The notes under the pieces were generated by a model. It was not told the origin of the DNA and did no database searches. It worked only from the letters and a program-made list of their open reading frames with translations. Of a stretch of 64,000 nt of DNA, positions 3,642 through 22,740 are shown piece by piece (positions within the stretch are counted from its first letter, which is position 1; each line of letters opens with the position of its first letter). A program made the position numbers and the translations under genes. The stretch spans positions 29,253-93,252 of the forward strand of contig JALQPE010002916.1 in NCBI GenBank assembly GCA_030407315.1, given 5' to 3'. This DNA comes from Asparagopsis taxiformis. Its lineage: Eukaryota; Rhodophyta; Florideophyceae; Bonnemaisoniales; Bonnemaisoniaceae.

Positions 3642-4577
3642 ATGGAATTCTCCTTGGCCACTCCAACTGGTCACACCCCATCGAACACATTGGGAAACGC
3701 ACGCATGATATCGCCCACAGACGGTGCAGTACTCGTTCGCGACGGATTCACCGTTGCACTGCACGACTTTGCCTCCCTGCTGCCCGATGCAACCCTCCTC
3801 GTTGCAGATATCGACGGACAGCCCGATCCTGCCACTCTTTTGCCTCTGCACAACTCCTCGTTCCCGTCTGGCACCATAACGCTATTCCAGCAACTCGGTG
3901 ACACAGCTGCACAAGCGTTCCTCACCCTCGCTAGACTGCGCGCCACGGCAGAAGGCCCTCCAATACATGACATGGACATTTCCGTCACCGTGGTAAAGTC
4001 CGCCTACGTCATGGGAGGGTACGTCCCAGATGCCGACGACTTTGACCCGCACAGTGGCATGCTTCGCCCCACAAACGTGTCGAGGCACAAGCAGCAGCGC
4101 GTCTTTGCAACTTCATCATTCGGCCCCGCAAAGAGATCGCAGTACTCCTTTGTCGTCATCTCCGGAACTGCCGATGACTACAGAACCATATGGGTAGGGC
4201 GCGTCCTGGCACTGGTACGCCTGCAGTCTGCAAACCTGTTTCAACCTGTAGAACTCGCTTTCGTTCAGTATATGACCTGCTTTGCCCCAAAAACCGCTGT
4301 GGAGAAATCACTTGGGTGCATTTGTTTAAAGTGGTCCACATGGGACCCGGACAACGGATCCGTTCACAGCAATGACACTGCATCCCACAGTGCAGGTGGT
4401 CCTTGGTTTGACCTCATTCCTGCATCTACTATATCTGGCACCGTGCACATCGTACGAAGTAACTTTCCAGTCAAGCCATTTACGAAACAAATGCACTGGT
4501 CGGACCACCGTTTCTATCTCAACCGCTTCTACACCAACACTGATTACCAGTTCACAGATGATAATGAAGAAGAATAA
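3642..4577 (+). CDS. Unrecognised 311-aa protein, element-type
   Basis: The ORF starts at an ATG preceded by CCAC and encodes 311 aa ending in an acidic DDNEEE tail. There is no signal peptide, membrane segment or zinc finger. The second half has a beta-rich pattern: a segment around YRTIWVGRVLALVRL, then VELAFVQYMTCF, then FDLIPASTISGTVHIVRSNF, then a Tyr/Phe-rich end. This spacing loosely recalls the C-terminal BAH-like part of large transposase proteins of the Plavaka/KDZ type, but no catalytic core is present, so this is an impression, not an assignment. It converges on a frame-broken gene at 4655-6937 with only 77 bp between them, which suggests both belong to one mobile or repeated unit. 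Confidence 0.55.
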   Translation: MEFSLATPTGHTPSNTLGNARMISPTDGAVLVRDGFTVALHDFASLLPDATLLVADIDGQPDPATLLPLHNSSFPSGTITLFQQLGDTAAQAFLTLARLRATAEGPPIHDMDISVTVVKSAYVMGGYVPDADDFDPHSGMLRPTNVSRHKQQRVFATSSFGPAKRSQYSFVVISGTADDYRTIWVGRVLALVRLQSANLFQPVELAFVQYMTCFAPKTAVEKSLGCICLKWSTWDPDNGSVHSNDTASHSAGGPWFDLIPASTISGTVHIVRSNFPVKPFTKQMHWSDHRFYLNRFYTNTDYQFTDDNEEE

Positions 4578-4654
4578 ATCTAAATCGCAGCACTCTATTG
4601 ATAATGTACTACATGATAAGCCTTCTAGTCAACGTCACATTTACTGCACTAATT

Positions 4655-6937
4655 TCAACCATCCTCCATTACGCCAAAACCGTTATCAGCAGTGGCTGCA
4701 TGGCGCCGCTCCATGCCCCCATACTGTGGGGCATTGATTTCTACATTCAGGTTTGCACTCAGGTGTCCAGCATATGGGTCAACGACGAAAAGTTCTGCGC
4801 CAATTAGTCCTTGCGCAATCACACAATCCATTACAGCACCGAGGTTTGACGTAATATGCGATTGAATCCAATCCTCGGACACTAGAACAAGTGATGAGCA
4901 GCGGTTTACATCATCAACGACATGAACAATTCCAGACCCCTCTCCGCTTTGCCACACTTCAACAGCCTCTCTCGTCACAGTACGGCTTGCAAACACATGC
5001 CGTGACTGTGCACTAGTCCGCTGTTCGCTCTCGACAACGTCTGTTTCTTCCCTTGCTTGCGAGCCTTGGAGACAAGACATGCAGTACACCACCATACCAA
5101 CTAATTGCTGAAAAGCTACCCCCACATATTGACTGTACCGCCTTGTAAACTCCTTCTGCCGTGCACCTCCTTTCCCCTTCGGTTCATCCAAACACTCCAC
5201 AGTAGTCACTAGCCAAGCATCCAGGCGCGCCAGCGTTAGTATGCTCGTCTCTATGTCCATTACTTGTTCTGGTCGTATCGAATAACCCCTGAAGATGTCC
5301 AGCACATTCACAGCTACTCGGTGTTAAACCATGCATCACCATTCACTTCCATTTCGAAGCTGTCAGGAACCATGCCTTTGCTGTATCGCAGCTCTGAGAA
5401 CGGTGCCGTTCGCCACCTCCCCATATCCAAATCACCGTTGCTTTCCCGTTTCAAAAGCTTCTCAGAAGCTTCGCGCTTTTGATCCTCTCGCTCGTCCATC
5501 TCAGCTCGCGTCGTCAGCGTCGTGCATCTAGACATTAATTTCGTGTACCCCAGCGAACCGAACAATCTGTCCCTCGCATTATGCTTCCGTGCACTCATCA
5601 CGTCTGACAGTTTCTGCGTCACCTTCACTTTCAATGCCTTGCTCCCCGCCACAGCCTCTTGACAGCACACACGCTGCTCCTCATCGGAAAACACATCACA
5701 CCACGGACTTTGACGCAGTACGTGTCGCACCAAGTCATTCAGCAGATCACTCTCGTCCCTGTACGAAGGTGTATACCACTGCAGATTCTTGATGATGTAG
5801 CCCGGAGGGGTAGCAATATATCCTACACCGTTTTCGCTCCAAAGTGTCCCTTCTACCGGCTCTACCTCGATGGTACGTCCAGTCCAACGTCTCTGCGTTT
5901 GTTCCGCTATAGGGTCCAGCTCCATAGTCTCGTTCTTGCACCACTTTGTCAGGTTTTCCTCAACCGCCCTAAGAACTCCAAGGTATTTCACAGGAATGGC
6001 TCTCTGTATTTTCGACTTACCGCCACCGTGATCACTGATTCTACCTGTTCTCGCAATTGCAGTAAGGCTGGCATTTTCCGCCTGCAGAGTCTTCACCTTA
6101 GCCTCCAACGCAACTATCTCCGTGGTGAGCGCCTTGTTTGCTATGTCCTGGCTAAACACTTTTTTTCCAGCTCCGCGATCTTCTTCTTCTGCGCATTGAT
6201 GCGACTCGCCATTAAATCGATGGATTCCGGCGGATGCAACCTCTCTGCCCTCACCGTCCCCCATCTCGCACGCTATCGGGAATATGATGTCCTCCATCGG
6301 CAATATCCTGACGTCACGGGGGCGTTACGCGCATATTTGGCACCAATGACAGTCTGTTGTGACGAGGCCCGCACTCCGGCTGCTCTCTCCCCTCAGTACC
6401 ACCTGACCGCCGATGATAGTTGGCATCCTGTGAACGTTGCTCAGAAACAACATCCCTTGCCGCTATCCTCGGGTCCCTGACTGCATTACCTGCTGGGGCT
6501 GATGTACTCGGCATAGTTGGCGCAGTGGGGGTCACAGCCTCCAGTGTGTCGGAAGCCCCCGGCTGGGACTCCGTCTGCAGCACCTCCGCATCTGCCAACC
6601 CGGGAGGAACTACCTTTGCCATAGCACTCTGCCGCAATTCCAACATGTTTTGAGCCACTATCATGTCATCATCATGATGTTCACTGTCCCTGCGAGCACG
6701 CTTGCCTCGGTCAAGCCCCATCTCTCTCCGCGCCGTTCCTCCTTCCTCACTTTCTCGCTGCGGATCCCCAGTTCTGCGCCGGTCCGTCTTGCGACTACCG
6801 GACCGCGGTTCAATGCTGCCGGTAGGCCCAGACCGCTTCTTCGCACGGGATTGTCGGGCACTCGATACAGCAGCTGCTGACCGGGTTTTCTGGAGGCCCG
6901 GAGGCTTTGGAGCTTTCTTCGCAATACGCGGCGGCAT
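4655..6937 (-). pseudogene. Frame-broken unrecognised gene with coiled coil
   Basis: Three consecutive minus-strand frames look like one gene. The first (6937-6314) opens with a true ATG and encodes a basic, Ser/Arg-rich N-terminus with a Lys/Arg cluster. The second (6303-5314, first ATG at 6297) holds a leucine-zipper-like coiled coil (around IVALEAKVKTLQAENASL) and a globular part rich in Trp. The third (5311-4655) begins without ATG and would be the C-terminal ~218 aa. The gaps between frames are 10 and 2 nt, too small for ordinary introns, so frameshifts are the simplest reading. Short unusual introns overlapping the coding ends cannot be excluded. The family is not recognised. The position opposite the 3642 gene suggests a two-gene element. 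Confidence 0.45.
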
Positions 6938-7170
6938 AATGAAGCTTTCTCCGAAGCGATGGAACGATTGAGTTGCACGAGATACTAAAAAGGTTGCTGT
7001 ATAGTGTCGGTACCCACAACGGTCTGCGATGAACGTTCAGGTCAGGTCAAGTACCGGAGAATACGCCAACAGCCCAGATTGTATACGGTAGGCAGTCATC
7101 AACAGTATTTAATGAGGTACAATTACAGCTGTCGAGCTAGGCCGCGAGCACCCCTATGTCCGGAAGACGT

Positions 7171-7363
7171 CCTGATTTGAATTAAAATTTGGGCTATTCT
7201 CAAAAACATGCACATGTGAACATGTTTTTGAGATGGGGGTGTGCCATACGGCACAATCGACCCGCTGGAATCGATGTTTTTCGCAATATTTTTTTCTGCC
7301 CTGAATTTTAGAATTTCTGGGCTGGACAGCAATGCAACTGAGCTGGACATCCACCGGGCGTCC
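7171..7363 (-). repeat. 192-bp palindrome-bearing repeat, copy L1
   Basis: This is the only copy on the left of the methyltransferase gene and is inverted relative to the copies at 11.1-17.9 kb, so the gene is bracketed by inverted copies. It runs from CCTGATTTGAATT to the GGACGTCC-like end (here GGGCGTCC). It contains the stem-loop arms CTCAAAAACATG / CATGTTTTTGAG around CACATGTG. Its 14-bp palindrome has one change (GTGCCATACGGCAC). The ~45 bp outside it (from about 7125) match the ~70 bp outside copies L4 and R4. Confidence 0.8.
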
Positions 7364-7597
7364 ATTTCAACTTGGTCGTGTATTTTGCATCTGCACGCAT
7401 AACAGCATCCAAGCAGTCAGGTTCACTGCTCGGACGAAGTGCACCTGGAGTGTGAACGATTGGTTTTTGACAGGCGAGTACTGCTGAGTAGGTTTCACCC
7501 TGGACTAATGGTGGCTGGACATGCTGCATTATATGATATACTTCAACTCTGGAATGTAGCTTTATTTGTAGTCGAAATGGAAACATCTTTCGTGACC

Positions 7598-10500
7598 CTA
7601 ATTCCATGCTCTAAACGCTGTCCCATAATGAACGTAGAGCTCCTGCCCTGGACGGATATCGCGGATTGCACGTACTACAATGATCTTCGGATTTTCTAGG
7701 TCCTTCGCCTTGAGCTTCTTCCCCGTCGAACCGCTGCTGTAGTTCTCGACAAACTCGACGTTGGCCATCCGCCTGGTGTCTTCCGCCGGAGTGTCCTCAC
7801 CTCGCAAATACCGCGGGTCGTTGATGAACTGCGCCGAACAGAACAGAGCCGGAACAATCCAAATTGTATGGTCGATGTTTTCGTCGTCCTCCGCTGTTGT
7901 ATACAGCTTGATGGCATACATCAAGAATGTTTCCTTCGTTATCGCCATGTGACCCTCTCCGTACGCGAACCTCATCGACTCCTTGCTCATATCAGAGTAC
8001 ACAACAGTTCCGTAGTATGCACATACTTCGTCGCCAACATTAAATGTCTGTTCAGCGAAGAGCCCTCTTCCTGCATTTGGATGCTTAATCAGCGATGGTC
8101 GAACGCTCAATTTTTTCGCAACACAATCGTGTGCCCGCATCACGCGAGGGTTTTCAGTTTGCAACCAGCGGCGCAGGGAAGGTGGCCAATAATGTACCGG
8201 TTTTTCCATGTGCTCGTGCGACGCAATCGACTCTGGGCACAGCTGCCAGAGGTACTGCCGAATATATTTCGGGAACCTCTGGTACAGGGGAAGGCCAGGT
8301 GGGGGTTCGATGATCCTGCGTTCCCTCTGTGTACGCATCGTGACAGAGGGGGACGCCAAGAACTTCTCAGCACTCTGTTTCGCTTCTGTCGTGACCCTCA
8401 TGTCAGTGTTGTTTGAAAGAATTACACGTGACATGACTGCACACAGCTTTGGAAGCGATCGTGCCACACACAATTTGTCCATGTCACTGCCGACGAAAAC
8501 ACGGTGCTCAGGCAAGCTCATAGCTGCTTTTCCCGTTGCGAAAGTGCCAGAGAATGGATCGACAACAATATCACCAGGCTGTGAATGCTGGCTGATCAAC
8601 TCCATCATGAGAGCGACGCTCTTCTGCTCTGCACGAACTCTGACCGTAGCACCGGTTGTGCTCCTTGTTCGCCACACCATCTCATTCGAATCGATGGCGG
8701 GCATATTGATGGTGACGTTGCACCACGCCGGGTACGTGCCGTCCATGTATCCGTGGTTCCTATAGGCCACCATCTCGCTTCCGGTCTTGAACGGAACACC
8801 TCGCTTCCAGAAGTGGATAGCGACCTCTGCCATGTTCATGCGTTGGTACCTCTTCCGCCCCGGCATTTGATAGAGGTGCCCAGGTAGTCGGACAAACAAC
8901 AGAGGTACCTCGTCAACGAAGAAAACTGAATTCCGAACGACGTCCTCCTCCTCCTCGTCCTCCTCCTCATCCGCACTTTCTTCGCCACTGTGCTGCGATG
9001 CTTCGGAGTCCGAATTCATGGACGTAACCTCTTCTTCATCCGACCCGTCATCACTGGCAGCATCATCGGTTGGGCCTTCTGACTGCGGTCCTTTGTACGT
9101 TTCCAAGTAATGGAACCATTCGTAGAACTGCAAAACGGAGCAGAACACGATGCCGTGGCCACCGGGGCGCAACAGCTCGTCAAACACTTCGATGCTAGCC
9201 TGCATATCTTCTGCAGTTAGCCTGTCGTACGAAGAGTTGGAATCGTTCCTCTTACGACGAACATTGTAGGGCGGATCAGTCAGAATGAGCTGAACGTTGC
9301 CCGTGATGGGCACGTGTTCTCGGCTCTCGTCGGCACTGACCAAATCTTCGAAAGGGACGTCGTACACCCGGCAATACTGACTCATTTTCGAAAGAAAGTC
9401 CTTTGCGAGAGCCTGCCCTTCACTTTCCTGCTCTTCTGTCGCATGGGGTGACGGTGACGGGGGAGACGGCCCTTGGGCAGTAAGACTGGTCCTACCAGGC
9501 CCAAGTTCAAGCTTGGTTGTGTGTCTTGTCGACGGAACCAAACCTCTCCCTCCTGTGTTGCGACGAGTGGGAGTGCCATCAACCGGCTTGGCGACCTTTT
9601 CTGCGTCCGCGGCTTGTGGTGCCGGGCGGAGGACAGCCATAACGTCTTCGGCGAGGGTGTCAAAGTACGCTGGCAGCTTGTCCGGATTTCCGCTTGACAA
9701 GTATATTTCCAGCGCCCCCCAGCGGTCGGACTCCGGCCAGGTGTACAGGTCCGGGTTGACGATAAGAAACTGCAACCGGTCGAAGAACTTCCTCACAAGG
9801 TCCCTAAATGCACTGTGCTGCGCACTGGTTCTTGTCTCTACTTTTCCACCATATCCATCAGGATGAGATAGGGGAGCTTTGTCGTGGTAGAGATCTAGCT
9901 TCTGCTCCATCGGTGCGAATAGACCTTCATCGAGCACGTCAAACCAATGCTCACTGCTGTCGAAAATGATGTACGGCGCCATCAACTCTTCGAAGCTGGA
10001 AAACTTTGCGGCGTAGGCCACATCGGTCCAAGCATGGTATAAAACTTGAACCACGTAACAAGCTCGATTAGTGCTTTTTCGATGGGCTGGGACGCGTGCG
10101 GCTTCGTTCCCCTCTTCGGCCGCATCGCCTATTCGGCGACGCGGCAGGTTCTTGTTGTGATTTCGGATGATAGACAACGCTTGGAAATACATCAATACCT
10201 CGAACGTTTCCGGTGGAGCAAGAACGAAGGCGCTTGGTTCCCCGCGCTGCGGCGCCTGTAGTGGCGAAGGAAGCATGTTACATCCAATAAGGAAGGTCTG
10301 CGGCACGATCCCAGAAAGGATGCAGTGCTCAACCCATTGCCCGATACGCTCATCCTGTCTTGAAAACTCGGCAATGGGTAATGCCAGACGAACAATCTGC
10401 TTGGCTCGCTCAACGTTCATCTCTGCCATGACGATTTCGGCAACATCCGCCTCGACTCCAGCATTCTTCGAACGACCGCTGAAGGACATGCTGAGTCGAC

Positions 10501-10795
10501 CTTGCAGTGCCACAAATTGTTCTTCCGTGCCCTGCGCAACCCAAGCGCCAAGGTCCGCGTATGTGAAACCTCCCGGCTTGTCCGTCAAGTCTGCGAAACT
10601 TGAGTGGGCGAATAAATCCAGCAAGAGGCGGAGGAAGTCTTTGCCAGCGAGAGTAGTTTCGCGGGCGGCGCGACCTACGTTTCGACGTGTACCCATGTCA
10701 CTAGAATCCTCCCAAGGGCTAGCGGGTTCGCGCAGAATTGGCACGGTTGCGTCGTCAACTATCGGATTGCTGTTGCGCCTGCGCTTATTCGTCAT
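7598..10795 (-). CDS. Beta-class amino DNA methyltransferase fused to SET domain
   Basis: Predicted 1065 aa. The frame extends upstream to 11053 only through a TTG, whereas the ATG at 10795 is kept as the start in the second copy at 60796. The N-terminal ~420 residues are helical and unrecognised. A Pro/Ser/Thr linker follows. The catalytic motif DPPY is at 507-510, preceded by LILT. A long Asp/Glu-rich insert comes next, then the AdoMet-binding motif DPFSGTFATG starting at 746. Motif IV before motif I defines the beta class (N6_N4_Mtase family); DPPY usually goes with adenine-N6, less often cytosine-N4. From about 895 to the end there is a SET-like domain: AGRGLFA near 908, QFIND in place of the usual NHS motif, and ELYVHYG near the C-terminus. 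It is divergent from the ParB-dioxygenase gene at 13499. No frame damage is seen. The combined DNA- and protein-methylation role is inferred, not shown. Confidence 0.8.
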   Translation of the reverse strand: MTNKRRRNSNPIVDDATVPILREPASPWEDSSDMGTRRNVGRAARETTLAGKDFLRLLLDLFAHSSFADLTDKPGGFTYADLGAWVAQGTEEQFVALQGRLSMSFSGRSKNAGVEADVAEIVMAEMNVERAKQIVRLALPIAEFSRQDERIGQWVEHCILSGIVPQTFLIGCNMLPSPLQAPQRGEPSAFVLAPPETFEVLMYFQALSIIRNHNKNLPRRRIGDAAEEGNEAARVPAHRKSTNRACYVVQVLYHAWTDVAYAAKFSSFEELMAPYIIFDSSEHWFDVLDEGLFAPMEQKLDLYHDKAPLSHPDGYGGKVETRTSAQHSAFRDLVRKFFDRLQFLIVNPDLYTWPESDRWGALEIYLSSGNPDKLPAYFDTLAEDVMAVLRPAPQAADAEKVAKPVDGTPTRRNTGGRGLVPSTRHTTKLELGPGRTSLTAQGPSPPSPSPHATEEQESEGQALAKDFLSKMSQYCRVYDVPFEDLVSADESREHVPITGNVQLILTDPPYNVRRKRNDSNSSYDRLTAEDMQASIEVFDELLRPGGHGIVFCSVLQFYEWFHYLETYKGPQSEGPTDDAASDDGSDEEEVTSMNSDSEASQHSGEESADEEEDEEEEDVVRNSVFFVDEVPLLFVRLPGHLYQMPGRKRYQRMNMAEVAIHFWKRGVPFKTGSEMVAYRNHGYMDGTYPAWCNVTINMPAIDSNEMVWRTRSTTGATVRVRAEQKSVALMMELISQHSQPGDIVVDPFSGTFATGKAAMSLPEHRVFVGSDMDKLCVARSLPKLCAVMSRVILSNNTDMRVTTEAKQSAEKFLASPSVTMRTQRERRIIEPPPGLPLYQRFPKYIRQYLWQLCPESIASHEHMEKPVHYWPPSLRRWLQTENPRVMRAHDCVAKKLSVRPSLIKHPNAGRGLFAEQTFNVGDEVCAYYGTVVYSDMSKESMRFAYGEGHMAITKETFLMYAIKLYTTAEDDENIDHTIWIVPALFCSAQFINDPRYLRGEDTPAEDTRRMANVEFVENYSSGSTGKKLKAKDLENPKIIVVRAIRDIRPGQELYVHYGTAFRAWN

Positions 10796-11110
10796 AATGG
10801 AATGAGTGGAAAACTCGGTACAGGATGGCGACCGCTCGGCGAGACAGTCAAATTTGACGACGTATCTCGTGACGTTTGCACTCTTTCGTGAGGAACACTG
10901 GTTGATATCGAACGGAACAGAGTATACGGGTACACAGCACTGGAAAGGTCTTGAAACCCGTAACCGGTGTAGGTAATAAGTTGTGACGCATACGTGGTAG
11001 AGAAAAAATTTTAAAAAGATTGTGATTCCCTGCCTTTGAGTGTTGTACTGCAAGGCCGCCAGTCACATAGGTTGTCACAGGTGCCTCACGCTTACCAGGT
11101 GAGCGACATC

Positions 11111-11310
11111 CGGACGGCCACTGGACGTGGGGATGTCCAGCTCAGATGCATTGCTGGCCAGCCCAGAAATTCTACAATTTCGGGCAGAAAAAATATTGCA
11201 AAAAACATCGATTTCGGCGGTCGATTGTGCCGTACGGCACACCCCCATCTCAAAAACATGTTCACATGTGCATGTTTTTGAAAATAGCCCAAATTTTAAT
11301 TCAAATCAGG
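11111..11310 (+). repeat. 192-bp palindrome-bearing repeat, copy L2
   Basis: Contains the perfect 14-bp palindrome GTGCCGTACGGCAC followed by the stem-loop arms CTCAAAAACATG / CATGTTTTTG, and ends CAAATCAGG. It lies about 320 bp upstream of the methyltransferase start, in opposite orientation to L1. Confidence 0.85.
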
Positions 11311-11599
11311 ATGCAGATATTCGTCTTCTACCATTGTCAGAACACATTCGTATAACCACATTTGGAGAACCTGAGCCCAGAGCTATCGGTTTTGGCGGGA
11401 GCTAAGCCATATCTCATCCAATCAGTAACTACTTCCCGCCAGCTGAGTGGTGGAACCCCTGCTATTTCTACCAACGACACATACGGAGTGTCAACTCGGC
11501 AATCGTATATGATTCGGGTGCTAAATTTATTCAAGAGACGAATGGGCTTCGAAAAGGAGCCCAACAACGTTTTCTTGTGATCCATGGGTATAGGACTAT

Positions 11600-11950
11600 T
11601 CTATTCTTCTCCAGGCTTCCACCATAGCCTCCTCCACCACCTCCGTTAATGGATCGATTATCCGAACCGCACCTCAACATGCTTTTCTTCTCACCCATGG
11701 GTACTGACATCTCCGAGATGTGAGTCACATGTTCTGCAGGCTTCCACCGTAGCCGCCTCCTCCGCCTCCGTTAATGGCAACAATATCCGAACCGGACCTC
11801 AACATGTTTTTCTTCTCATCCATGGGTACTGACATCTCACATGTTCTCAACATGTGAGATGTTAGTACCGGAGAAGTTCTCCAGGCTTCCTCCGTAGCCA
11901 CCTCCTCCACCTCCGTTAATGGCAACAATATCCGAACCGGACCTCGATCA
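11600..11950. repeat. Tandem ~130-bp units with a Gly-rich reading frame and a long hairpin
   Basis: Three diverged units each contain TCCTCC-rich sequence, CCGTTAATGG and TATCCGAACCG. On the minus strand each would read as a glycine-rich peptide (INGGGGGGYGGSL). Between units 2 and 3 lies an inverted repeat at 11825-11869: arms of about 21 bp with one mismatch, core ACATCTCACATGTT, 3-nt loop. No long ORF joins the units, so I treat them as non-coding repeats. The counterpart in arm B is at about 59720-59990. Confidence 0.65.
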
Positions 11951-12164
11951 CTCGCTCGCGGAGGGATCTGTGGGAATCAACACGACATCACCACTGCGTC
12001 TTACCTGACATCCACATCTCTCCGGGCTGAAAACGGAAGGACGACATTGGGTTCGTTCCGCTGCGTAGACGTTTAGAATCTTGTTAGAAAAAAGTAAACG
12101 AAAGAGAATGACATCTCATCTCTGTCGCAATATGTTCCATTTTCAATTTCTCGGGTTGCACACC

Positions 12165-12250
12165 CATCAAGGCCTGGATCGAACCCTCTTCGATGGATAG
12201 GACAAATAGTGGAAGGCTTTTAAGCCTTTGACCAAGCGGCTATTGATTGG
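12165..12250 (-). repeat. tRNA-like A-box/B-box sequence, possible SINE head
   Basis: On the minus strand TAGCCGCTTGGTC resembles a pol III A box. About 50 nt later GGTTCGATCC (12176-12185) is a perfect B box. Between them AAGGC-TTAAAA-GCCTT could form an anticodon-like stem, but its loop has six nucleotides and acceptor pairing is poor, so it is not a functional tRNA gene by eye. A copy is in arm B near 59430-59520. Confidence 0.3.
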
Positions 12251-12482
12251 TTGGAGGAAAGAAATTACAGAGGAAATATAGCTGAGTACGGTGCTCGCGA
12301 TAGCTGTTAGGTTAAAGTCAAATATTTGTTTCGATTATTTTTCGTACGGAAATGCCTTGGAAAAGACGATGCTTTGTCGTTCTCTTGGAGGGAGACCGTT
12401 GCATTGCACTCCATTCGAGAGCATCGTCATGAAGGAGAGGATTCTTTCTGCTTGTTAGAATCGGTTTAGAGCAGATAGCTAT

Positions 12483-12650
12483 TGCATTGCTGGCCAGCCC
12501 AGAAATTCTAAAATTTCGGGCACAAAAAAATTGTAAAAAATCATCGATTTGGGCGGGTCGATTGTGCCGTACGGCACACCCCCATCTCAAAAACATGTTC
12601 ACATGTGCATGTTTTTGAGAATAGCCCAAATTTTAATTCAAATCAGGGTG
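12483..12650 (+). repeat. 192-bp palindrome-bearing repeat, copy L3 (5' end lost)
   Basis: Contains the 14-bp palindrome and the full stem-loop but lacks the GGACGTCC end. Its left flank matches the flank of R3b (59071) and its right flank matches that of R3a (58683), so it looks like the product of recombination between two direct repeats still separate in arm B. Confidence 0.8.
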
Positions 12651-12958
12651 TCTAATTTGGCCACAACGGCCCCAGGAACCGGAGCCGCCGCCCCGAGCGG
12701 GGTCATCACTGGCTTCTGTAAGCACTAACTGTAAGGCTAAATGGCGCCGAAAGATGGGTCGATTCCAGGCTTCAAGCCTAAGTTATGCTAGGGTGACATC
12801 GTTTCCCCTGTTCCATCATGGTCCCGCCTTACTCCTCCACGACAAACACTACTCACCCATCACGTTACTCATATTCCGTGCACTTTGTATGAGTAGTGAA
12901 CTCGCCTGCTTAGTTGCTGCAATGCGTGGATGTAGGCAGCACACGACCAACCTGGAAT

Positions 12959-13150
12959 GGACGTCCGGTGGATGTCCAGCTGAGATGCACTGCTGGCCAG
13001 CCCAGAAATTGTAGAATTTCGGGCACAAAAAGTATTGCAAAAAACCTTGATTTCGGCGGGTCGAATGTGCCGTACGGCACACCCCCATCTCAAAAACATG
13101 TTCACATGTGCATGTTTTTGAGAATAGCCCAAAGTTCAACTCAAATCAGG
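12959..13150 (+). repeat. 192-bp palindrome-bearing repeat, copy L4
   Basis: A complete copy from GGACGTCC to CAAATCAGG, about 350 bp upstream of the ParB-dioxygenase start codon. The next ~70 bp (CCCGGATAAAGGGGTG to the CAGCTGT motif) are shared with the flank of L1 and of R4, so the full repeat may be about 270 bp. Confidence 0.85.
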
Positions 13151-13498
13151 GTGTCCCCCGGATAAAGGGGTGCTCGCAGCCGCCCCAAAAGCCGTCTAGC
13201 TTGACAGCTGTAATTTTAACACATTACACATCAAGGACACTGCCTGCTTCACGCCACCTCGTCAGGTTTCGAGAGCCCGACTCGGGCCCGTTCCGAACGG
13301 ACACTCACATCTCGATTGCCTCTCTTGCATTCCAGCGGTCACGATAGGTGTGTACCTAACAAAATTTCGGTTCTATTGTGTTATTATTTCCAGCGATTGG
13401 CGTTCACGACCATTCTTCAACGCAACGTGAAACATACCATCCACATCACTCCAATACGTCAACGTCAACCATCTCTTTTCCTTTCCAACTCAACAACC

Positions 13499-16400
13499 AT
13501 GGCGGATACGCATTTCAGCAGCTTGTTTTCAACGGTTTGCGGCGATCAAGTGAGCGCGTCAGCGGAGTCGCGCGGACTCAAGCGCGGCGCCGATGTCAAT
13601 TTGTTTGCGGACGTGGACGGTGCGGCTGTGCATATTGGGACGGCTTCGGTGAGCACTGCTGGTGGCGATGTTGGCCTTCCGCGCACGCTGCACAACCACA
13701 AGCTGCCGGAAACCGACGAGGCGGACTATATCGTCGTGCGCAACATTGCGACTAAGGACAAGTTCAAGGACCTCCCGTTCCCGTACATGTTTGATGGCGC
13801 CGAGGGACCGCCGGAGACGATGGGTGGAGCATACGCCGCGGCGTTTTACCCTTGGGATACTCGTATGATGCGCCCCGCTGCGGAGGATGGCCCTAGCGAC
13901 ATTCGTACCCCTGCTGCAGCGTCAAACTTCAACGCAGCGACGAACCAGGCCAGCTCGGGACGGATGCCCAGTACCGGTCCAGCAGGCGAAATCACTGGTT
14001 CGGGGGGTACGAAGCATCCAGCACGCTCCGTCCCGGTTTCGGGAGGCACGAAGCGCCCTGCTCGCTCTGCTAGAGCCTCCAGTGGAGGCACGAAGCACCC
14101 TGCTCGCTCCAACGTCACCGAAGCTACTACGCAGGACGTAACCGAGGTGGACGACGAACCGGAGGTGGCGGAGAGCATTCGTGAGCAGCAGGGGACGCAA
14201 ATTACGGTGCCCAAGTTTGTGACGTCGGATTACGTCGGAGAAGGAGCGACTGTGTTGGTGAGGCAGCTAGTGGAACCGGCCGTGACCCTTCGGGATGTGA
14301 AAGAAGACCACGTGGAGGACGTGCGCAACAATATGTTGGCTGTGGGGTATGTGAGCTCTTCGCGTATCACTGTGACGGTGCTGAGGTCGCAGAACACGCA
14401 TCTGCCCGCCGACACGCGTCTGTTCCAGAATGGCAAATTCCATGCCAATGCGAACGTGACCGTGATCGACGGACTGCATCGTCCCAATGCTATGCATAGC
14501 ATTGCGGATGACTTCACGCGCCTCACCCGTATGCACAGAACCAAGCTGCCACAGGACGCAAACCGCTTGCGCTGGGTTACTCAGCTTCTGGATGTGTACT
14601 ACCTTCGCCGCAAGGACGACAGTGATCTTCAGCCTCATGAGATCATCCATAAGAGTGCAGAGTCGAACCATACGACTGGGACGCAACTGACGGAACGCTC
14701 CCTGGTTCGAATCTTGTCGTCCATCCAGCAGTTCATCCGTACGATTGCTGTTGCAAATAACGTGGAAAACGCTGGCGACTTGCGTGAGTCTGATGTCATC
14801 CGAACATTGTTCGAGGCGCAGTTCATGGGGATGATGAATTCGACGAACACGGCCCGGCGGTGGACGCGTTTGGCTATAGCAACGCTGAAGCATCCTGTTC
14901 TCGACGAAGTTTTGCGTGAGCTGAACAATTCCGAGCGCCGCAACGAGATTGGGATAACGCACCTGGACCACAAGATAGTGCGCGAGTTGCTGGAAGAAAA
15001 CTTTGTCTTCGTCTTGCGTGGTCTTTCGGAGTACTTGAACCCTGCTCATGGTGGACGTCCGGATGGACGCTTTGACGTGAACGACTTCTATACATACGTC
15101 CGTCGCGTGACTGCAATAGCAAATTCTCTGTACGCTGCGTATGGGCGCCCAAAGAGTATTATGCGCAAGTCATTTCTGAGCACAGAGATGGCAATTGGGT
15201 CGGTTAAGCAGCCGAAGGAGTTGCAATGGCATCTCACCAATGCCATTGCAATGTATAGAGGGGACGACCGGAGCAGTGAGGCTCGAATGCGACGGAGAAC
15301 CACGCGTTTACAGGATTTGGAAACGAACTTGAAAGAGTTTTTCAATCCGACATTGAAGAAGAAGACTAAGGCTCGACGCAAACGCCGCCCTTCTGCTGCC
15401 AATGTGAGACTCACTCACAAGAAGCAGCGAAACGTCGAACACGAGCCTGCTTCGCATGGCATCCGCCGCCGTTCACAGCGACTTCGCTCGACGGGAAGCA
15501 CACGCCTCGAGGAAGAACAGCCGGTTGCGGTACAACAATCCGCCGGGGAAGAAGAGCAGGCCGTTGTTGATAAACCCACCGATCAACAACAAGCCACTGC
15601 TTCCGGTGATGAGGGTGAAGAAGACTCCGCCCGTTCCCCCCATTCTGCCGTTGAGATTGTCCCCCAAGATAACCAACGTGCTGGTGCGACTCCCTCCAAC
15701 CAAGAATCTGTCCATAACGTTTCGGACGAGGAAGAAAACAACAGTGCAGATGAGGGCCATGTCAAAAGCAAGGGGGTCCGCGAAGTGACAATTACACTCA
15801 CTGTTCCGGAAGGAGTGGAAGTCGATGAAGACGGTTACATCGTTCGTGACTCTCCTTCTGAAGACGACCTACTGTTCGACGACCGTATGCCATCTATTCC
15901 TGACGATTTCGAAGCCAAAGACCGAGCCGAAGGGCATCATCTGGCGCAGCGTCCCGCGGACGTCATCGCATCGGTGAGGGTTGGCTGTCTGCCCCCGATT
16001 GAGCTCAGGTTGTTATTGGAGAGTGTGGAAATCGATGAGGAGGGCAGAGAGGTGAGGTATTTGAAGCAAGTGGCGATGGACCCTGTGTTTGAGGGGCTGC
16101 ATATTCCGGAAGAACATCGGGCTCGTGTGCTATTCGAAATCTATCACGTCTATCCGATGTTCTTCGCAGCGTGGAAGATGGCTGCCAAGGCGATGTGTGA
16201 GCCTACATCGACGTTTCTACCCTCGAGACTGGACTTCGCTCAGGTTGCGCGAATGTCTACAAGCTGGAAGGATTCGTATGAGGCCGGCACTGGTATGGCG
16301 TACTTCCACAATTGCCGAACGGAAATCAATGAGCGAGGGTATACGGTGATGCACAATTTCGCGGATGTAAGCTACCTCGATGCGTCGGACAAGTTCCCAT

Positions 16401-17452
16401 TTGACTTGGGTCTCATGGAAGAAATTCCTAACCAGGAATTGTTTGGGTACTTTTTTGGAACGTGGGAGGGTGAGGAGGTGCACAAGGACCCTGGGAACCG
16501 GCAGCTGTGGAGTCCCATTGTCAATACAGGGGGCGATGAAACAGATGAGAAGAACCGGAATGAGGGGAGGGCTCGCTTCACGTCTACACGCCAGTGCCTG
16601 GTTGACTATGCCGAGAACGACGAGTCGCGTACCGACCGGTTCAAGTTTGTGACGCGACGAGCCCTGCTGGATGTGTGGTTGGGAATCCTCGTCCGGCTGA
16701 TAGGACTGGAGGAGTGCGGTTTACCGGGAGAAAAACTTGTCATGCCGGCATCTGGGGGACGGTTTTTGATAACGGGAAAGGGGTGTCCTCGGCAGGTCCC
16801 ACACAATGATTTCCCTGTTCCTCCTCGCGACCGCAAAGATCAACTTCCGGGTTACTTTGTTATTGCCAACGGAGATGACCCATTCCCTATCTGGGTGTGT
16901 CCAGGGTCTCACAAGTACGTCTTTTCCAAAGCGCTGGAATTAGATATGTACGCCAAGACGATGAAGCTGAAGAAGGTAATCGTTCCGCCACGTTCAGTCT
17001 TCATCGGTCACGGCCATGTACAACATGCCGGGGCAGGGCATGTCGACAGAGTTGTGTCACACACGACAACGAGGTATCACACGTATTTCAGGAATGCGTC
17101 GTATCTGATTCCCGACAATGTTTCGTTTGGTTTTATCAGGCGGTTGGGATTCGAAGAAGAAGTAATCCCCAATGCTCCGCGCCGATCTGCCAGGCAAAGT
17201 CAACCGGCACCTGTCAATGTTCGCCACAAGACAGTTGTTCCCATCCCGGTCAAGAAAGATCGTAGGCCAAAGACAGGGCAGCTCGGAATCATGCGGATGA
17301 AGACGACAGAAGCTCCCAAGAAGAGAACCCTCACAGCGGGTGAAGAATTCATCTTGAGCAGATCAACTCCACAGTTGCCGATAACGCCTATTCTGCCGGG
17401 AGATCCTGAATATAGTGGGGACGAAGAGGAAGAACAATTTTCCGACGGCTAG
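13499..17452 (+). CDS. ParB-like domain fused to 2OG-Fe(II) dioxygenase
   Basis: Predicted 1317 aa. The ATG at 13499 has a strong context (CAACAACCATGGCG) and is shared with the second copy; the frame further upstream opens only at TTG. Residues ~90-230 are low-complexity with KHPARS/KRPARS-type repeats. A ParB/Srx-like domain spans about 280-420, with the motif VIDGLHR around D324-R328, matching the DGxHR signature of ParB nucleotide-binding folds. Helical and basic regions (KKKTKARRKRR, a likely nuclear signal) and an acidic linker follow. The C-terminal dioxygenase shows the iron triad H1102-x-D1104 (PHNDFP) and H1176 (VQHAGAG), with R1192 as likely 2-oxoglutarate ligand. The layout GYFVIANG..VCPGSHK is typical of PhyH-like oxygenases of protists. 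Substrate unknown; DNA or histone demethylation is an inference from its methyltransferase neighbour. No damage is seen. Confidence 0.8.
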   Translation: MADTHFSSLFSTVCGDQVSASAESRGLKRGADVNLFADVDGAAVHIGTASVSTAGGDVGLPRTLHNHKLPETDEADYIVVRNIATKDKFKDLPFPYMFDGAEGPPETMGGAYAAAFYPWDTRMMRPAAEDGPSDIRTPAAASNFNAATNQASSGRMPSTGPAGEITGSGGTKHPARSVPVSGGTKRPARSARASSGGTKHPARSNVTEATTQDVTEVDDEPEVAESIREQQGTQITVPKFVTSDYVGEGATVLVRQLVEPAVTLRDVKEDHVEDVRNNMLAVGYVSSSRITVTVLRSQNTHLPADTRLFQNGKFHANANVTVIDGLHRPNAMHSIADDFTRLTRMHRTKLPQDANRLRWVTQLLDVYYLRRKDDSDLQPHEIIHKSAESNHTTGTQLTERSLVRILSSIQQFIRTIAVANNVENAGDLRESDVIRTLFEAQFMGMMNSTNTARRWTRLAIATLKHPVLDEVLRELNNSERRNEIGITHLDHKIVRELLEENFVFVLRGLSEYLNPAHGGRPDGRFDVNDFYTYVRRVTAIANSLYAAYGRPKSIMRKSFLSTEMAIGSVKQPKELQWHLTNAIAMYRGDDRSSEARMRRRTTRLQDLETNLKEFFNPTLKKKTKARRKRRPSAANVRLTHKKQRNVEHEPASHGIRRRSQRLRSTGSTRLEEEQPVAVQQSAGEEEQAVVDKPTDQQQATASGDEGEEDSARSPHSAVEIVPQDNQRAGATPSNQESVHNVSDEEENNSADEGHVKSKGVREVTITLTVPEGVEVDEDGYIVRDSPSEDDLLFDDRMPSIPDDFEAKDRAEGHHLAQRPADVIASVRVGCLPPIELRLLLESVEIDEEGREVRYLKQVAMDPVFEGLHIPEEHRARVLFEIYHVYPMFFAAWKMAAKAMCEPTSTFLPSRLDFAQVARMSTSWKDSYEAGTGMAYFHNCRTEINERGYTVMHNFADVSYLDASDKFPFDLGLMEEIPNQELFGYFFGTWEGEEVHKDPGNRQLWSPIVNTGGDETDEKNRNEGRARFTSTRQCLVDYAENDESRTDRFKFVTRRALLDVWLGILVRLIGLEECGLPGEKLVMPASGGRFLITGKGCPRQVPHNDFPVPPRDRKDQLPGYFVIANGDDPFPIWVCPGSHKYVFSKALELDMYAKTMKLKKVIVPPRSVFIGHGHVQHAGAGHVDRVVSHTTTRYHTYFRNASYLIPDNVSFGFIRRLGFEEEVIPNAPRRSARQSQPAPVNVRHKTVVPIPVKKDRRPKTGQLGIMRMKTTEAPKKRTLTAGEEFILSRSTPQLPITPILPGDPEYSGDEEEEQFSDG

Positions 17453-17737
17453 ATAGCTTAACAACTACTACTTTGGTAAACAATTATCGAGAATATAATC
17501 ATCTCCTTTATCACTTTCAATCTATGAACCTACTATAATGTACTTCCGTTCCATGCTTTCAAACTAGATTGTCCATTCCCTCGTGGGTTGGAGCATGATT
17601 TCCAGGACGATTCCCTCACATCTCTAGACTCGATGGTCTATGCTAGAAATAGCAGAACAATTGGGTTTGTACGTGCTTCATCGCCTACTTGCTTCCGGTA
17701 ATGGGTGGACGTGCACGATACACGATCAACCTGAAAT
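17453..17737. other. 3' flank of ParB-dioxygenase gene
   Basis: AT-rich sequence with several AATATAAT/TTTATC motifs that could carry the polyadenylation signal. It is conserved in arm B (53584-53868). No ORF or repeat of its own. Confidence 0.4.
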
Positions 17738-17930
17738 TGACGTCCGGTGGATGTCCAGCTCAGATGCATTGCTGGCCAGCCCAGAAATTCTACAATTTCG
17801 GGCACAAAAAAATATTGCAAAAAACATCGACTTGGGCGGTCGATTGTGCCGTACGGCACACCCCCATCTCAAAAACATGTTCACATGTGCATGTTTTTGA
17901 GAATAGCCCAAATTTTAATTCAAATCAGGG
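17738..17930 (+). repeat. 192-bp palindrome-bearing repeat, copy L5
   Basis: A complete copy with the 14-bp palindrome and stem-loop, downstream of the ParB-dioxygenase gene and in the same orientation as L2-L4. It is followed by two diverged copies of a ~70-bp segment containing GATCGGGGCTATCACTGGC. Confidence 0.85.
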
Positions 17931-18187
17931 TGTCTAATTTGGCCACAACGGCCCCAGGAACCGACCGCCGCTCCGATCGGGGGCTATCACTGGCGTCTGT
18001 AAGCACCAACTGTAAGCCGGAACCGGCCGCCGCCCCGATCGGGGCTATCACTGGCTTCTATAAGCACCAACTGTGAGCCAAAATCGCGTCTGACGAAGGG
18101 TCGATTTCAGGCTCAACACGTCAGGGACAGGTCTTGGTCCTTGTTTCATCATGGTCCCGCCCCACTCTCTCACGACCAACCTGAAGT

Positions 18188-18250
18188 GGACGTCCGGTGG
18201 ATGTCCAGCTCGATTGCATTGCTGGCCAGCCCAGAAATTCTAAAATTTCC
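18188..18250 (+). repeat. 192-bp repeat, truncated copy L6
   Basis: Only the GGACGTCC...CCAGAAATTCTAAAATTTC third is present; the palindromes are absent. The identical truncation in arm B (52571-52633) shows it pre-dates the duplication. Confidence 0.75.
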
Positions 18251-18559
18251 GAAAAATCAATTTGGTGGCCCAGCATCTCCTGTGCCGAAAATTCCCGCAC
18301 TCACTTCTGATATACTATATCGTAATAGTGGTAGTCTAGACGTGTTTCGCACTTGTACGCATCAGGGAAGGCGTCACAGAAGGTTGAGACTACGCTACTT
18401 GTGTACCGCGTCGTCTGAAATAGCGAGTAGTGTTTGTTGTATAGTTGTGGAGTATGCGTCTAATGGTTTGTAAAGCTTGCAGAACGGGATAGGGATGTGG
18501 GTGGCCCTATTTTATGAATACATGAGTACCAATATTCAGGGGTGACAAAGCGGAAAGGC

Positions 18560-19560
18560 ATAGGCTCATACATGTTTGAGATTGCATAGTGGAGAAAATA
18601 TTTACATCGAAATTTACATGGAGCTGATGGAGGTTTTAAGGATGAGGTATGAGAGGAAGAAAATTCTTCTGTGGTATGAGGATGTGTTCTGTGGGGGGTG
18701 GATGGAATCTTGGGATGGGATGGTACAGGGGGAGGTGGAAAATGTACGGAGTGCGGGTTTAGATTGGAGTGTGATTCGGAGAGGAGTGCCGACGAGCATA
18801 TTATGGGGATTGGGGAGACGCTGCGGGGTGTTGGGGTAGTGAGGGCGGAGGAGGTGTTTAGGTGGGACCGTAGGAGGGTGCGGTTGAAGGCGCCGAGAGG
18901 AGGGGTTTTAGGAAAGTGAGGAGAAAGTGGCGGGAAGGGGGTGGCCGTCTGTTCTGGCTGTGGTGAGTGGGGATGTGATGGAGAAGAAGGGGGTTATTGT
19001 ATTTGGGGAGGGAGGGGAGTGGGAGGATGGGTGCGAGGTGGGGGGTTGATATGTGGTTCAGAGCGGGGAGGTTTCTGGGGAGACGGCGGGGGAGCGGGAG
19101 CGTGGGCCGGTGGTGGTGGTGTATACGGTATCGAAGATGCGGATGGCGTGGGGGCATGGAGCAGCTGAGGGAGGGAGGGGTGGAGCAGGTCGGGTATGGG
19201 ATGGGGAGTGAGAGGTTTTGGAAGAGTAAGCTGCAGGGGAAGTTTGTGTAGAGGGCGAAGGAGAGGGGTTGAAGGTACAGGAGAGAGGGTATTGAAGACC
19301 AATACGTTTCAAAGGTGTTGGGGGAGACCATGGTCGAGGAGATAGGGGGTGTTTTGCCCTATTCTGAGGTAGTATGAGGACTGGTTATACGAAATCTGTA
19401 CGGTAGAGCAGAAAAGTAGGTATGGAATGGAGGTGTGCACCGTGGAAGCGGGGATAGGTAGCTGAAAATGCGTGCTAGAGTGGTATTGGGGGTGTTTGAG
19501 GTACAGTACGGGGGAGGTGAGCTCCAACTGGAAGGGGGTGTGAGCGAGAGGATGAAAAAA
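18560..19560 (+). other. Strongly G-rich strand-asymmetric segment with ORF remnant
   Basis: The plus strand is rich in GGG/GGGAGG and poor in C for about 1 kb. Around 18740-18920 a frame with CTECGF...CDSERSADEHI is kept with conservative changes in arm B, which hints at a decayed short coding region with a Cys/His motif. The frame is interrupted upstream in both copies. I do not recognise it. Confidence 0.4.
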
Positions 19561-19599
19561 TTAAAGACAAAATTGGAGTCGACAGACAAGGAAAAACAG

Positions 19600-19912
19600 A
19601 GTGGTCGCCGTGATGGATGCGGACATCCATGTCGAGCACGGCGGCAGAAATTTCTGGGGTCGAAATTTTTGAATTTCTGAACCGGCGCCCGTCCTAGGTT
19701 GACATAGACATGGTGGAAGTCCATCCCGAGGGGGACATCCGTGGTACTAGAAACAATGAATGTCGTCCTAGTAATACTAGACGTACTAGACCGCATGGAC
19801 GTCCGGTTCTAGGCGGACATCCAAAAATACTGGAGAACATGGACGTCCGCCTAGTAATACTAGGTGTACTAGAGGTTGTGGACGTCCGCGTCCATTTCCG
19901 AGAACACAGACG
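19600..19912. repeat. GGACGTCC / CTAGTAATACTAG palindrome-rich element end
   Basis: At least seven copies or near-copies of GGACGTCC (GGACATCC, GGAAGTCC variants) and two copies of AGTAATACTAG occur within 310 bp. The same motif marks one end of every 192-bp repeat. Homology with arm B ends exactly at 19912, so this is a candidate terminus of the element. Confidence 0.6.
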
Positions 19913-22740
19913 AATATCGTCCGAGGTAGCCAACGATGAATGCAATATCTGGCCTTGTGCAGTCAGCAAGATATCGCAATGAACCTATAAGTCCAGTATA
20001 GTCGCATTTGGTCTTGTCGAGGGGTTGGGAATGTTGGTTACCTGACGCAAGAAGTTCCGATGCAATGGGGGAGGGGCTTGGCTTGGCATCGCAATGGCGA
20101 TATTTCTCAAGAATGGACTGTATATAACCTGGTTGAGATATGGAGATGCTGTCTTCACTGTGTGTGACTTTCCAGCCGAGGATAGTGGAGACTTGACCGA
20201 TGTCTTTGATAACATACTTTTCGGACAGCAGGGTTTTGATGGATTCTGTAAGTGCCATGGAGTTTGATATAACAAGAAAATCGTCTACAGTAATGATTAG
20301 TAGAACGAAGTGAGTAGAGTGCGAGGGGTCGCGGTGGATGAAGGAACAGGGGTCAGAGTGAAGGCGAGTGAAGTTATTGCAGGTGAGGAATGTTGCAAGA
20401 CCTTCAGTGAAGATACGACATGCTTGTCTACTTCCGTACATGTTGCCGGAAAGTCGTGCAACGTGGCCAGGGTATTGGAGGGATCCGTCGAAGCGAGACG
20501 GTTGGTGGACAAATATGTCGTGAGTGTCAGAGAATTTCTCATGCAGAAAAGCTGCTTCAAGATCCCAGTGTAACGTGTGGTAGGAGTGCGAAGCGGCAAG
20601 GGCTAGGGCAGATCGGACGGTGTCACGATGTGTCACGGGGCTGGATAGGTGGTCAGGATCGAAGTGTATGCCAGGAACTTGTTTGTCGCCGCGGACAGTA
20701 CATCGCACCTTGCGTACAGAGGGAGTACCATCACTGTCGTGTTTAAGTTTGAAAACGGTAGTAAGAGGAAGGATTTTGGCATCAGGGGGAACATCGGAGC
20801 GTGGAATATAACTGAGAATGCCTCGAAATTCTAGGTTATCCATTTCAGTGTTCCAAGCCTTTTCCCATTCATTGGCGTCCGGTGAAGCGCGGGCCTGTGA
20901 CAGTGTTTTAGGCTCTGTGAATATCTGATTGATAGACTGGATTGTGTAAGCCGAGTCAGATGAGGGCAGCGTGCGAACGGGGTCTGCGGAGGGAGAGTAT
21001 TCATGGAAGTCACCAGTACGACAGCGGTGGACGCTGCTATTGGATGGATCAAAAACGAAGTAGTGGCGATAATCGCATCGTGAAAGGTAATACATAAGTT
21101 TTGCTCGCGCCTCGAGTTTGTTGTGGGGTGTGCGATCATGCACATAACCTGCAGTACCGAAAGGCAGGAGGGTGTCAACCTCAGGAGCATCGTTGTACCA
21201 TAGCGCGGCGGGCAGGTTTCCATGTGCTGTGTGCGGTGTATGATTGTACGCATCGGTTGCGTTCATTATGGCATAATCATATAGGGTATGAGGGAGTCCA
21301 GAGCTAAGGAGGCTTGAACGTGTGGCGTCAAGTATGGTACGATTAATGCGTTCAGATAGTGCATTTTCCTGTGGCGTGTGTGGCACGGTTGGATGCGTGG
21401 TGATGTGTTCAGTATCGTAGAAACGTTGCAGATCCGAAGAGTAATATTCGCGTGCGTTATCAGATGTGAGGTGTTGTATGACGTGGGGTGTGTGATGGTG
21501 TGTATGTGTTATATGGGTCTTGATGTGGGCAGCAGCGTCGGATTTCGTGGGACTACAATATACGACAAGGAAGCGGCTGCCTTCATCGAGGAAGGTTGAA
21601 AAGTATTTGTTTCCGTCTAAGGAAGTACATGGAAATGGTCCAGAGATGTCGGTGTGTAGGTGTGTTCCGACGTCCGTAGTGCGTTGGCGGCGGTGGAAAG
21701 GTGCAGCACTGGTTTTGCCGACAGCGCATCCCGAGCAGGAAAGTTTTGGCGGTGAACGGAGGAGGGTGGCTGGCAAATGTGGTACGAGTTTGTTCTTTGC
21801 CATGTGATGTATTTTAGTGGGATGCGCGTGGTTGAGTTTGAGATGCCAGTGGTGGTAGTCACGTATGACGTTTGACATGGATACCTTAATTTTTGGTTTT
21901 AGTTTTGAGATTTGGACGCGTTTTGTCTGGTTTGTTTTGCGTGATGGTTTTGTTTTCATGTGAGAGTTGGATTGAGGTTGTTTGTTGATTGGCCGAGCAA
22001 GAGCAGTGAGAGGGCTTCGCATTGTGGCTTGGCGACGTGTGGATGCATGCTTGCGTCGCTCGAGATTGGAGGGGATGGCACGGGCTGCAGTTGCCAAATA
22101 AGGGCGACGTGCTTTGCGGGGCGGGCGAGAGCTGGAGAGTCTGTAGAGTCCTTTACGTTTTGGGGCAACAGCAATGATACAAGCTTTAGGGGGAGGCGGA
22201 GCCGGTTTGGTTATGTACGCTTTATCTTGCTTGAAGATTATATCGTGTGTCGCCGTGATCTGTGATACAGAGAGCAGGTTCGAGTGTAGATTTGGGCCGA
22301 CCACTGCAGTGTGAGGAGGCAGTTGAGTGTCATCATCAGTCGGAATGATAATTTCGTCCCGATGAGTAATCTTGGACAGTGTTCCGTCAGCTGTTCGAGT
22401 TTTGGAGGGGCTCACTGTCATGCCAGGAGTGGGTTTCGTCAGGTGCGAAGGGTTAGCGCCAGAGTCAAGGATGTAAGACGTAGACGGGGATGAGGGGTGA
22501 CGTACGACTGTTGACTCATTGTCATCATCAGAGGCCTCAATTTCATCGTATTCGATGAGGCGCTCATCTGCAATTGCAGATTGTACTTTGATCTTGGATC
22601 GAGAGTTGGACGGTTTCTGTTGTGGGGCTGGGAGGGAGAGGAGTCGACGGAGGCGGCACTCAGAAGTAGAGTGAAAAGGAGATCCATGGACTGTACACCA
22701 GGGTCCAGTGTGACCTGTAGGAGGGGTTATGTTTGTGTTA
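19913..22740 (-). pseudogene. pol: Copia pol polyprotein, C-terminally truncated
   Basis: The frame is open well upstream of its first ATG (22421). It includes a zinc-knuckle region (WCTVHG...HSTSEC, near 22690) and the aspartic protease site ILDSGA near 22460. Next come the pre-integrase HHWHLKLNH region, an integrase core with DISGPF, TSDN and PQENALSE (D-D-E residues visible) and a reverse transcriptase with AFLHEKF. The catalytic box reads TVDD (about 20280-20291) instead of YVDD. The frame ends shortly after the LGRYSS motif by running into arm A. RNase H is lost. Otherwise the frame is undamaged, so truncation seems recent or the coding part is conserved. Gag lies upstream in another frame. 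Confidence 0.85.

Follow-up and report, generated by a model that had tools for sequence, protein, structure and literature searches.

A Plavaka-type DNA transposon of the red alga Asparagopsis taxiformis that carries a DNA methyltransferase-SET gene

Transposons with captured chromatin enzymes are already known, i.e., described elements carry erasers of 5-methylcytosine (TET/JBP), histone SET enzymes or C5-specific DNA methyltransferases (DNMTs). TET/JBP as well as SET genes within transposons are reported in the parts of PMC12730594 covered here, and the parts of PMC5890265 considered describe retrotransposons with DNMTs that may methylate their own DNA. The Plavaka DDE transposase is classified in the literature as CACTA-related. 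For the N6_N4 enzyme of rotifers, the corresponding portion of PMC8885841 states that it is without eukaryotic homologs. Here, we describe a stretch of 64,000 nucleotides from Asparagopsis taxiformis (assembly GCA_030407315.1, contig JALQPE010002916.1, positions 29,253 to 93,252; in the following, the window means this whole stretch) with two copies, A and B, of a mobile element in which a DNA amino-methyltransferase-SET gene and a second, even longer gene accompany a Plavaka transposase. We consider it fairly probable that the element belongs to the Plavaka lineage as a complex DNA transposon of the cut-and-paste type, residing in the red algal nuclear genome and equipped with an anti-silencing or self-marking module. 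Coordinates of all features are compiled in Table 1.

Table 1. Features of the window (positions in nucleotides from the first letter of the stretch).
Feature	Position	Strand	Remarks
Copy A of the Plavaka-type transposon	3626..19912	+	left end missing, right end exact; compared with the C1953, C68 and C2435 copies
Plavaka DDE transposase, C-terminal fragment	3642..4577	+	residues 702-1012 (311 residues); BLASTP 99.4% to the C2435 ORF
Coiled-coil protein gene (second element gene)	4655..6937	-	ORFs 6314-6937, 5314-6303, 4655-5311
Internal repeat of about 185 bp, left border of the methyltransferase module	7165..7380	-	inverted relative to the others
DNA amino-methyltransferase-SET gene	7598..10795	-	first ATG 10795, ORF open to 11053; 1065 codons from first ATG
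SET domain	7622..8071	-	PF00856, residues 995-1144
Methyltransferase domain	8474..9316	-	TDPPYN (residue 592) before GDIVVDPFSGT (residue 827), beta-class order
Internal repeat between the two modules	11122..11313	+	
Two internal repeats upstream of the big gene	12481..13155	+	
Big gene, possible ParB-like and 2-oxoglutarate (2OG)-dioxygenase-like protein	13499..17452	+	ORF open from 13316; 1317 codons from first ATG
Internal repeat downstream of the big gene	17682..17935	+	strong hairpin
Right terminal inverted repeat	19880..19912	+	outward end AACACAGACG; subterminal GGACRTCC and CTAGTA repeats
Copia-type pol ORF (target, not part of the element)	19913..22421	-	Pfam RVT_2 E 5.3e-36, rve E 1e-7
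Copy B	50925..61956	-	right end 50925; broken off at 61956

The assignment to Plavaka is based on a copy found elsewhere in the host assembly, which comprises 141 Mb in 3156 contigs. An open reading frame (ORF) of 1012 amino acids (aa) at C2435:41991-45029 matches the Pfam family Plavaka (PF18759) with an E-value of 1.6e-24 (87.2 bits vs. a cut-off of 26.3). Its catalytic residues, picked by eye, are D (YSDK 257), D (CCDFPE 372), C2C (CHRC 394), H3H (HLLDH 650) and E (665), i.e., they follow the order D, D, C(2)C, H(3-4)H, last E that is given for Plavaka/EnSpm in the covered sections of PMC12730594. Genome-wide, the profile finds at least 123 places above cut-off (the best 123 of 1208 candidates were taken and all 123 pass), while it matches in none of 14 control genomes (0/14). 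The transposase is complete in the C2435 copy and copy A retains its last 311 residues. The original prediction, made from the window's letters, had reported that no transposase was visible and had suggested that an unassigned N-terminal region of the cargo proteins could contain the recombinase. The near-identical fragment in copy A corrects the former statement and removes the need for the latter, since the transposase is a separate gene located left of position 7125, where that prediction had let the element begin.

Starting from the left terminal repeat, the element is ordered as Plavaka transposase, coiled-coil gene, methyltransferase-SET gene, big gene and right terminal repeat. The two long divergent ORFs that had been predicted are present at 7598-11053 (-) and 13316-17452 (+). 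The coiled-coil gene between transposase and methyltransferase corresponds to the ORF C2435:40051-41913 (620 aa from an inner ATG), and in C2435 it likewise reads as two overlapping frames; its Pfam matches to coiled-coil families stay below cut-off.

The termini of the element are CGTCTGTG..CACAGACG, and terminal inverted repeats are found at both ends of C2435:24610-47700, a cargo-bearing copy of 23.1 kb. Allowing for one mismatch, the terminal pattern TTCCRNRAACACAGACG has 2810 matches (1418 + 1392) in the genome vs. 7 (5 + 2) for a reversed-pattern control. The termini are of two kinds, a left type and a right type. Plavaka elements are characterised by target duplications of 2 bp (or 3 bp). 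From the first 100 terminus places listed, we took every adjacent facing pair, 11 in total, and tested for such duplications; 7 of them, the C100 pair included, show an exact duplication of 2 bp (AA, TG, GA, TA, TT, AT, CT), which has a chance probability of about 1e-6 given 1/16 per pair. Termini and genes are also placed consistently. A left-type terminus is located 3.1-3.6 kb beyond the N-terminal side of Plavaka at 8/12 places (12 of the 13 places listed on C1 to C100, leaving out C100:271908, which lies beyond the terminus list), and some of the four misses sit near a contig end; a right-type terminus follows 2.7-3.6 kb downstream of the big gene at 2/3 places. At both ends, the subterminal repeats GGACRTCC and CTAGTA occur more densely than in shuffled sequences; in the Plavaka clade, subterminal repeats are expected as transposase binding sites. 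Many copies are nearly identical, which suggests that the family has been active recently. Another facing terminus pair of 27 kb (C67:84276-111495) encloses a further N6_N4 methyltransferase place (101990-102802) and shows no target duplication.

Within the window, the unit occurs twice in opposite orientation, as had been predicted, with the second copy at 50925-61956. Both copies share long blocks of 95-99% identity as well as a shorter stretch (11732-12847) of 79%. Searching the genome with 7125-19912, we found further copies on C1953, C280, C2435 and C68 (the best 4 of 2762 candidates scored). The sharp ends proposed for the unit hold on the right side only. That is, position 19912 is exact and common to five copies with five differing flanks, each time after the letters AACACAGACG, but position 7125 is internal: it adjoins one of the internal repeats, and in four further copies (C1953, C68, C2435 a, C2435 b) the sequence runs on past it to a point matching window position 3626 and from there for about another 4.8 kb to the matching inverted terminus. 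We thus reject 7125 as the left end. Likewise, we reject 61956 as an element end, since a sequence beginning with CACTACGGTG starts there. As this beginning is joined to other sequence at three more sites (C1953:17873, C280:10748 and C280:20189), copy B is most likely interrupted by a nested CACTA-type element. The remaining 61957-64000 is accordingly a probable CACTA-type element inside copy B, with the terminus CACTACGGTG and repeats of about 35 bp. On C68, repeats of the CCCCTAA type (640-733) directly adjoin the element copy and could represent a telomere or telomeric repeats in an interstitial position.

To relate cargo and transposase, we searched with three DNA probes, one from the methyltransferase region, one from the big gene and one from the left arm. 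At least 40 places of 97-100% identity were obtained for each probe, the window's own included; the copy numbers are lower bounds since the best 40 of 1042, of 1083 and of 1204 candidates were scored. Of the 42 rows in the search with 1204 candidates, 35 cover the full length and 7 a part of it. The distance between methyltransferase and Plavaka is 6.0-6.4 kb in the same orientation for all listed same-contig pairs (11/11), methyltransferase and big gene are 7.9-8.1 kb apart in 4/4 pairs (the window's own among them), and big gene and Plavaka are separated by 14.4-14.5 kb in 6/9 pairs. Given this steady spacing, the three genes travel together. The predicted mobility is hence borne out by the terminal matches, the copy numbers and the consistent right end. 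A single-locus duplication without consistent ends, which the original prediction had named as the finding that would speak against a mobile element, is excluded by the many copies, their shared ends and the constant spacing.

The methyltransferase-SET protein had been predicted as well, and both of its domains are confirmed above cut-off, i.e., PF01555 with an E-value of 3.8e-15 (56.9 bits vs. 26.7) and PF00856 with 9.8e-7 (29.6 bits vs. 22.4), with DPPY preceding the S-adenosylmethionine motif as in the beta class. Closest solved relatives are the adenine enzymes DpnA (E 5e-8) and CcrM (E 0.002), and judged by the DPPY motif the target is probably N6-adenine. Among the PHROGs, phage DNA-methyltransferase families are matched (phrog_67, E 5.7e-17). 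We obtained 10 homologs from the protein database, one of them 98% identical and nine distant ones with 25-33% identity. Out of 8 distant relatives scanned, all (8/8) show PF01555 above cut-off and 7/8 a SET match of E 0.004 or better, 4 of which are above cut-off. Since SET thus recurs in distant relatives, the fusion of methyltransferase and SET is probably old. The DPPY motif is found in 9/11 aligned methyltransferases, P0001 included. The frame itself shows no gap or early stop in 5/5 further genomic copies examined, and the ratio of nonsynonymous to synonymous substitution rates (dN/dS) ranges from 0.06 to 0.58 among differing copies, which show few differences. Two relatives, P0008 and P0010, have an N-terminal segment (about residues 1-110) that contains a DGAHR motif and by eye resembles ParB, without confirmation by Pfam; ParB-like and methyltransferase functions of the cargo may thus be fused in relatives of this type.

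For the big protein, the long ORF behind the original prediction of a ParB-dioxygenase is confirmed. Its motifs, i.e., DGLHR (residue 385) as well as HNDFPVP (1163) and QHAG..VDR (1236), which form the DG.HR and HxD...H...R patterns, speak for the ParB and dioxygenase labels, but profiles and structure lend no support. Both labels are therefore to be taken as possible, based on these short motifs. We found one relative, P0014, which is 34% identical and keeps DG.HR and HNDFPVP...QHAG...VDR. It is listed from the same source as the methyltransferase-SET relative P0006, with a longest contig of 13,551 bases in both cases, such that the big gene and the methyltransferase-SET gene are probably adjacent in another organism, too. 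No Pfam family of a TET/JBP dioxygenase domain is found in the big protein, neither for the whole protein (up to E 1) nor for two pieces of it (up to E 10). A search of viral contigs and a protein-database profile search from the two-sequence alignment gave nothing useful, and Foldseek reports no match of E 0.001 or better for a segment model of low confidence (mean predicted local distance difference test, pLDDT, of 40.1).

Taken together, we propose the following mechanism. The DDE transposase would bind the terminal and subterminal repeats and move the unit by cut-and-paste. The methyltransferase would mark DNA, probably at N6-adenine, its SET domain might methylate a lysine of histones or of another protein, and the second protein may bind DNA and possibly oxidise a methyl group. 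Jointly, the cargo proteins could keep the chromatin of the element open for transcription or transposition. From the overall analysis, a self-marking or anti-silencing role is most likely, because captured chromatin enzymes of other transposons are so interpreted. A further reason is that CcTET, which is closely related to the TETs borne by Kyakuja elements, oxidises N6-methyladenine (6mA) according to the sections of PMC12730594 considered. The wider reading, in which the transposon writes 6mA or N4-methylcytosine (4mC) together with lysine marks, carries a DNA-bound dioxygenase as editor and, owing to its many copies, sets the amino-methylation landscape of the red algal nucleus, is put forward tentatively and is doubtful as a whole.

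Several observations weigh against this interpretation. The usual form of SET domains has an NH motif, in place of which IND is found here, and 2/11 aligned methyltransferases (P0006 and P0011) are without DPPY. For the big protein, profile and sequence searches gave no notable match in Pfam, NCBIfam, PHROG or PDB, and AlphaFold failed on its segments with mean pLDDT values of 29.4 and 40.1 (two sequences each). With respect to transposition, 4/11 family pairs show no target duplication (C11, the second pair of C12, C67 and C88). The same holds for C2435:24610-47700, the sole cargo copy with both flanks well inside a contig, and for C2435 b, the left terminus of which is only 3 bases from the contig end. 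The genome search suggested along with the original prediction thus provided copies, exact ends and duplications in the family, but none in C2435 a/b; recombination between copies could explain their absence in these cargo copies. Furthermore, some family members are cargo-free: an 11.1-kb element on C14 shares the ends of the family and has a 2-bp duplication while it contains no listed ORF over 145 aa, which implies that cargo is not required in cis for spread. Finally, the N6_N4 methyltransferase family (PF01555) has at least 150 places above cut-off in the assembly (the best 150 of 2605 candidates, contaminating contigs possibly among them), and these places, which mostly belong to other families, show no steady distance to Plavaka, i.e., among 19 same-contig pairs only those of C178 and C206 agree in spacing. 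Among the PF01555 places, several families with identical scores are amplified, having ORFs of about 1186, 943, 1106 and 1080 aa, and not all of these places are this element.

Among the alternatives, the one that fares best, although we regard it as unlikely, makes the methyltransferase-SET protein and the second protein part of the transposition machinery. Methylation of the ends would then time or limit transposition, as Dam methylation does for Tn10/IS10, and the internal repeats would be binding sites of the second protein. The constant spacing of the cargo genes relative to the transposase fits this idea, as do the adenine-bearing subterminal motifs that are dense at both ends, but the C14 element has the same ends and a duplication without any long ORF.

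Somewhat less probable still is a passive cargo, i.e., genes captured once and amplified with the element that have little or no present function. In line with this, the coiled-coil gene and copy B are partly broken in the window, and pairwise dN/dS values reach 0.41-0.58, which is weakly informative given the few changes. However, five methyltransferase copies have intact frames, the catalytic motifs are kept in most relatives of 24-35% identity, and the two genes are probably linked in a distant relative.

We consider it improbable that the cargo is directed against rival elements or the host by self/non-self marking, i.e., that it silences or excludes other mobile elements. The element is indeed surrounded by other mobile elements, among them Copia and the CACTA-type insertion within copy B, and the genome contains several amplified families of N6_N4 methyltransferases; yet no restriction-like partner was recognised in Pfam scans of the window and element ORFs, and the element is itself hit by insertions. 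An endogenous virus, which large size, gene content, inverted terminal repeats and the match of the methyltransferase to phage families (phrog_67) might bring to mind, is highly improbable, since the element has a DDE transposase with matching terminal structure while no capsid or viral polymerase family is among the element ORFs scanned.

Some further features concern the architecture of the element and its surroundings. The internal repeats of about 185 bp flank the methyltransferase gene, around which they are inverted, as well as the big gene. One repeat copy (17840-17960) folds as a hairpin, the stem of which comprises 14 bp (z -4.4), and the repeat may serve as a terminator, promoter or recombination site. 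The methyltransferase module itself is found in both orientations, namely one in copy A, C1953 and C280 and the other in C68, C2435 a and C2435 b. An Rfam scan of the window gave nothing at gathering score. At its right end, copy A sits inside the Copia-type pol frame, which continues into element sequence at 19912. Farther left, a 716-codon ORF in GC-rich DNA (366-2516, -) has no Pfam match up to E 1; window positions 5-398 recur on C1953, and the region of 366-2516 is probably another mobile element. A C2H2 zinc-finger ORF of 704 codons is located at 30868-32982 (-), and similar stretches (about 65-67%) are found at 33803-34139 and 34743-35853. Elsewhere in the assembly, contig C469 bears 11 of the 13 places with a phycobilisome domain, reaching up to position 210907, and thus resembles a red algal plastid genome; 10 light-harvesting places are present in the genome as well.

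Within the open-licence literature, we found no Plavaka element with an amino-methyltransferase, and the combination of Plavaka transposase, amino-methyltransferase-SET protein and this second protein is unmatched there. If our proposal is true, 6mA/4mC and histone methylation are joined in one transposon protein. The following comparisons refer to the sections of the respective publications covered here. Closest are the TET/JBP-carrying Plavaka, Kyakuja, Dileera and Zisupton transposons of fungi (Kojima 2025, PMC12730594), which likewise combine a Plavaka-type transposase, terminal inverted repeats and short target duplications with a captured DNA-modifying enzyme, for which an escape from silencing is proposed. 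Differences are the amino-methyltransferase-SET writer, a second protein without a TET/JBP profile match and the red algal host. The termini differ as well, i.e., CGTCTGTG..CACAGACG belongs to neither of the subgroups PlavakaA (TGT..ACA) and PlavakaB (CATCA..TGATG). From the same source, HarbingerS and MuDR elements with SET genes (Phytophthora) are also DNA transposons with a captured SET methyltransferase, but their transposases belong to superfamilies other than Plavaka. In the Plavaka giant repeats of Amoebidium (PMC11244446), many genes match dinoflagellates or red algae and many are tyrosine recombinases, while a methyltransferase-SET gene is unmentioned in those sections. The retrotransposons of Symbiodinium and charophytes (de Mendoza 2018, PMC5890265), which number hundreds in Symbiodinium, share the self-encoded DNA methyltransferase, whereas theirs is a C5-cytosine DNMT within a retrotransposon and the enzyme described here is a bacterial-type amino-methyltransferase within a DNA transposon. 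The N4CMT of bdelloid rotifers (PMC8885841), finally, likewise joins a bacterial N6_N4_MTase (PF01555) to a eukaryotic chromatin domain. There, the gene belongs to the host, and its product has a chromodomain and acts at transposons in order to silence them, while here the enzyme is fused to SET and encoded by the transposon itself.

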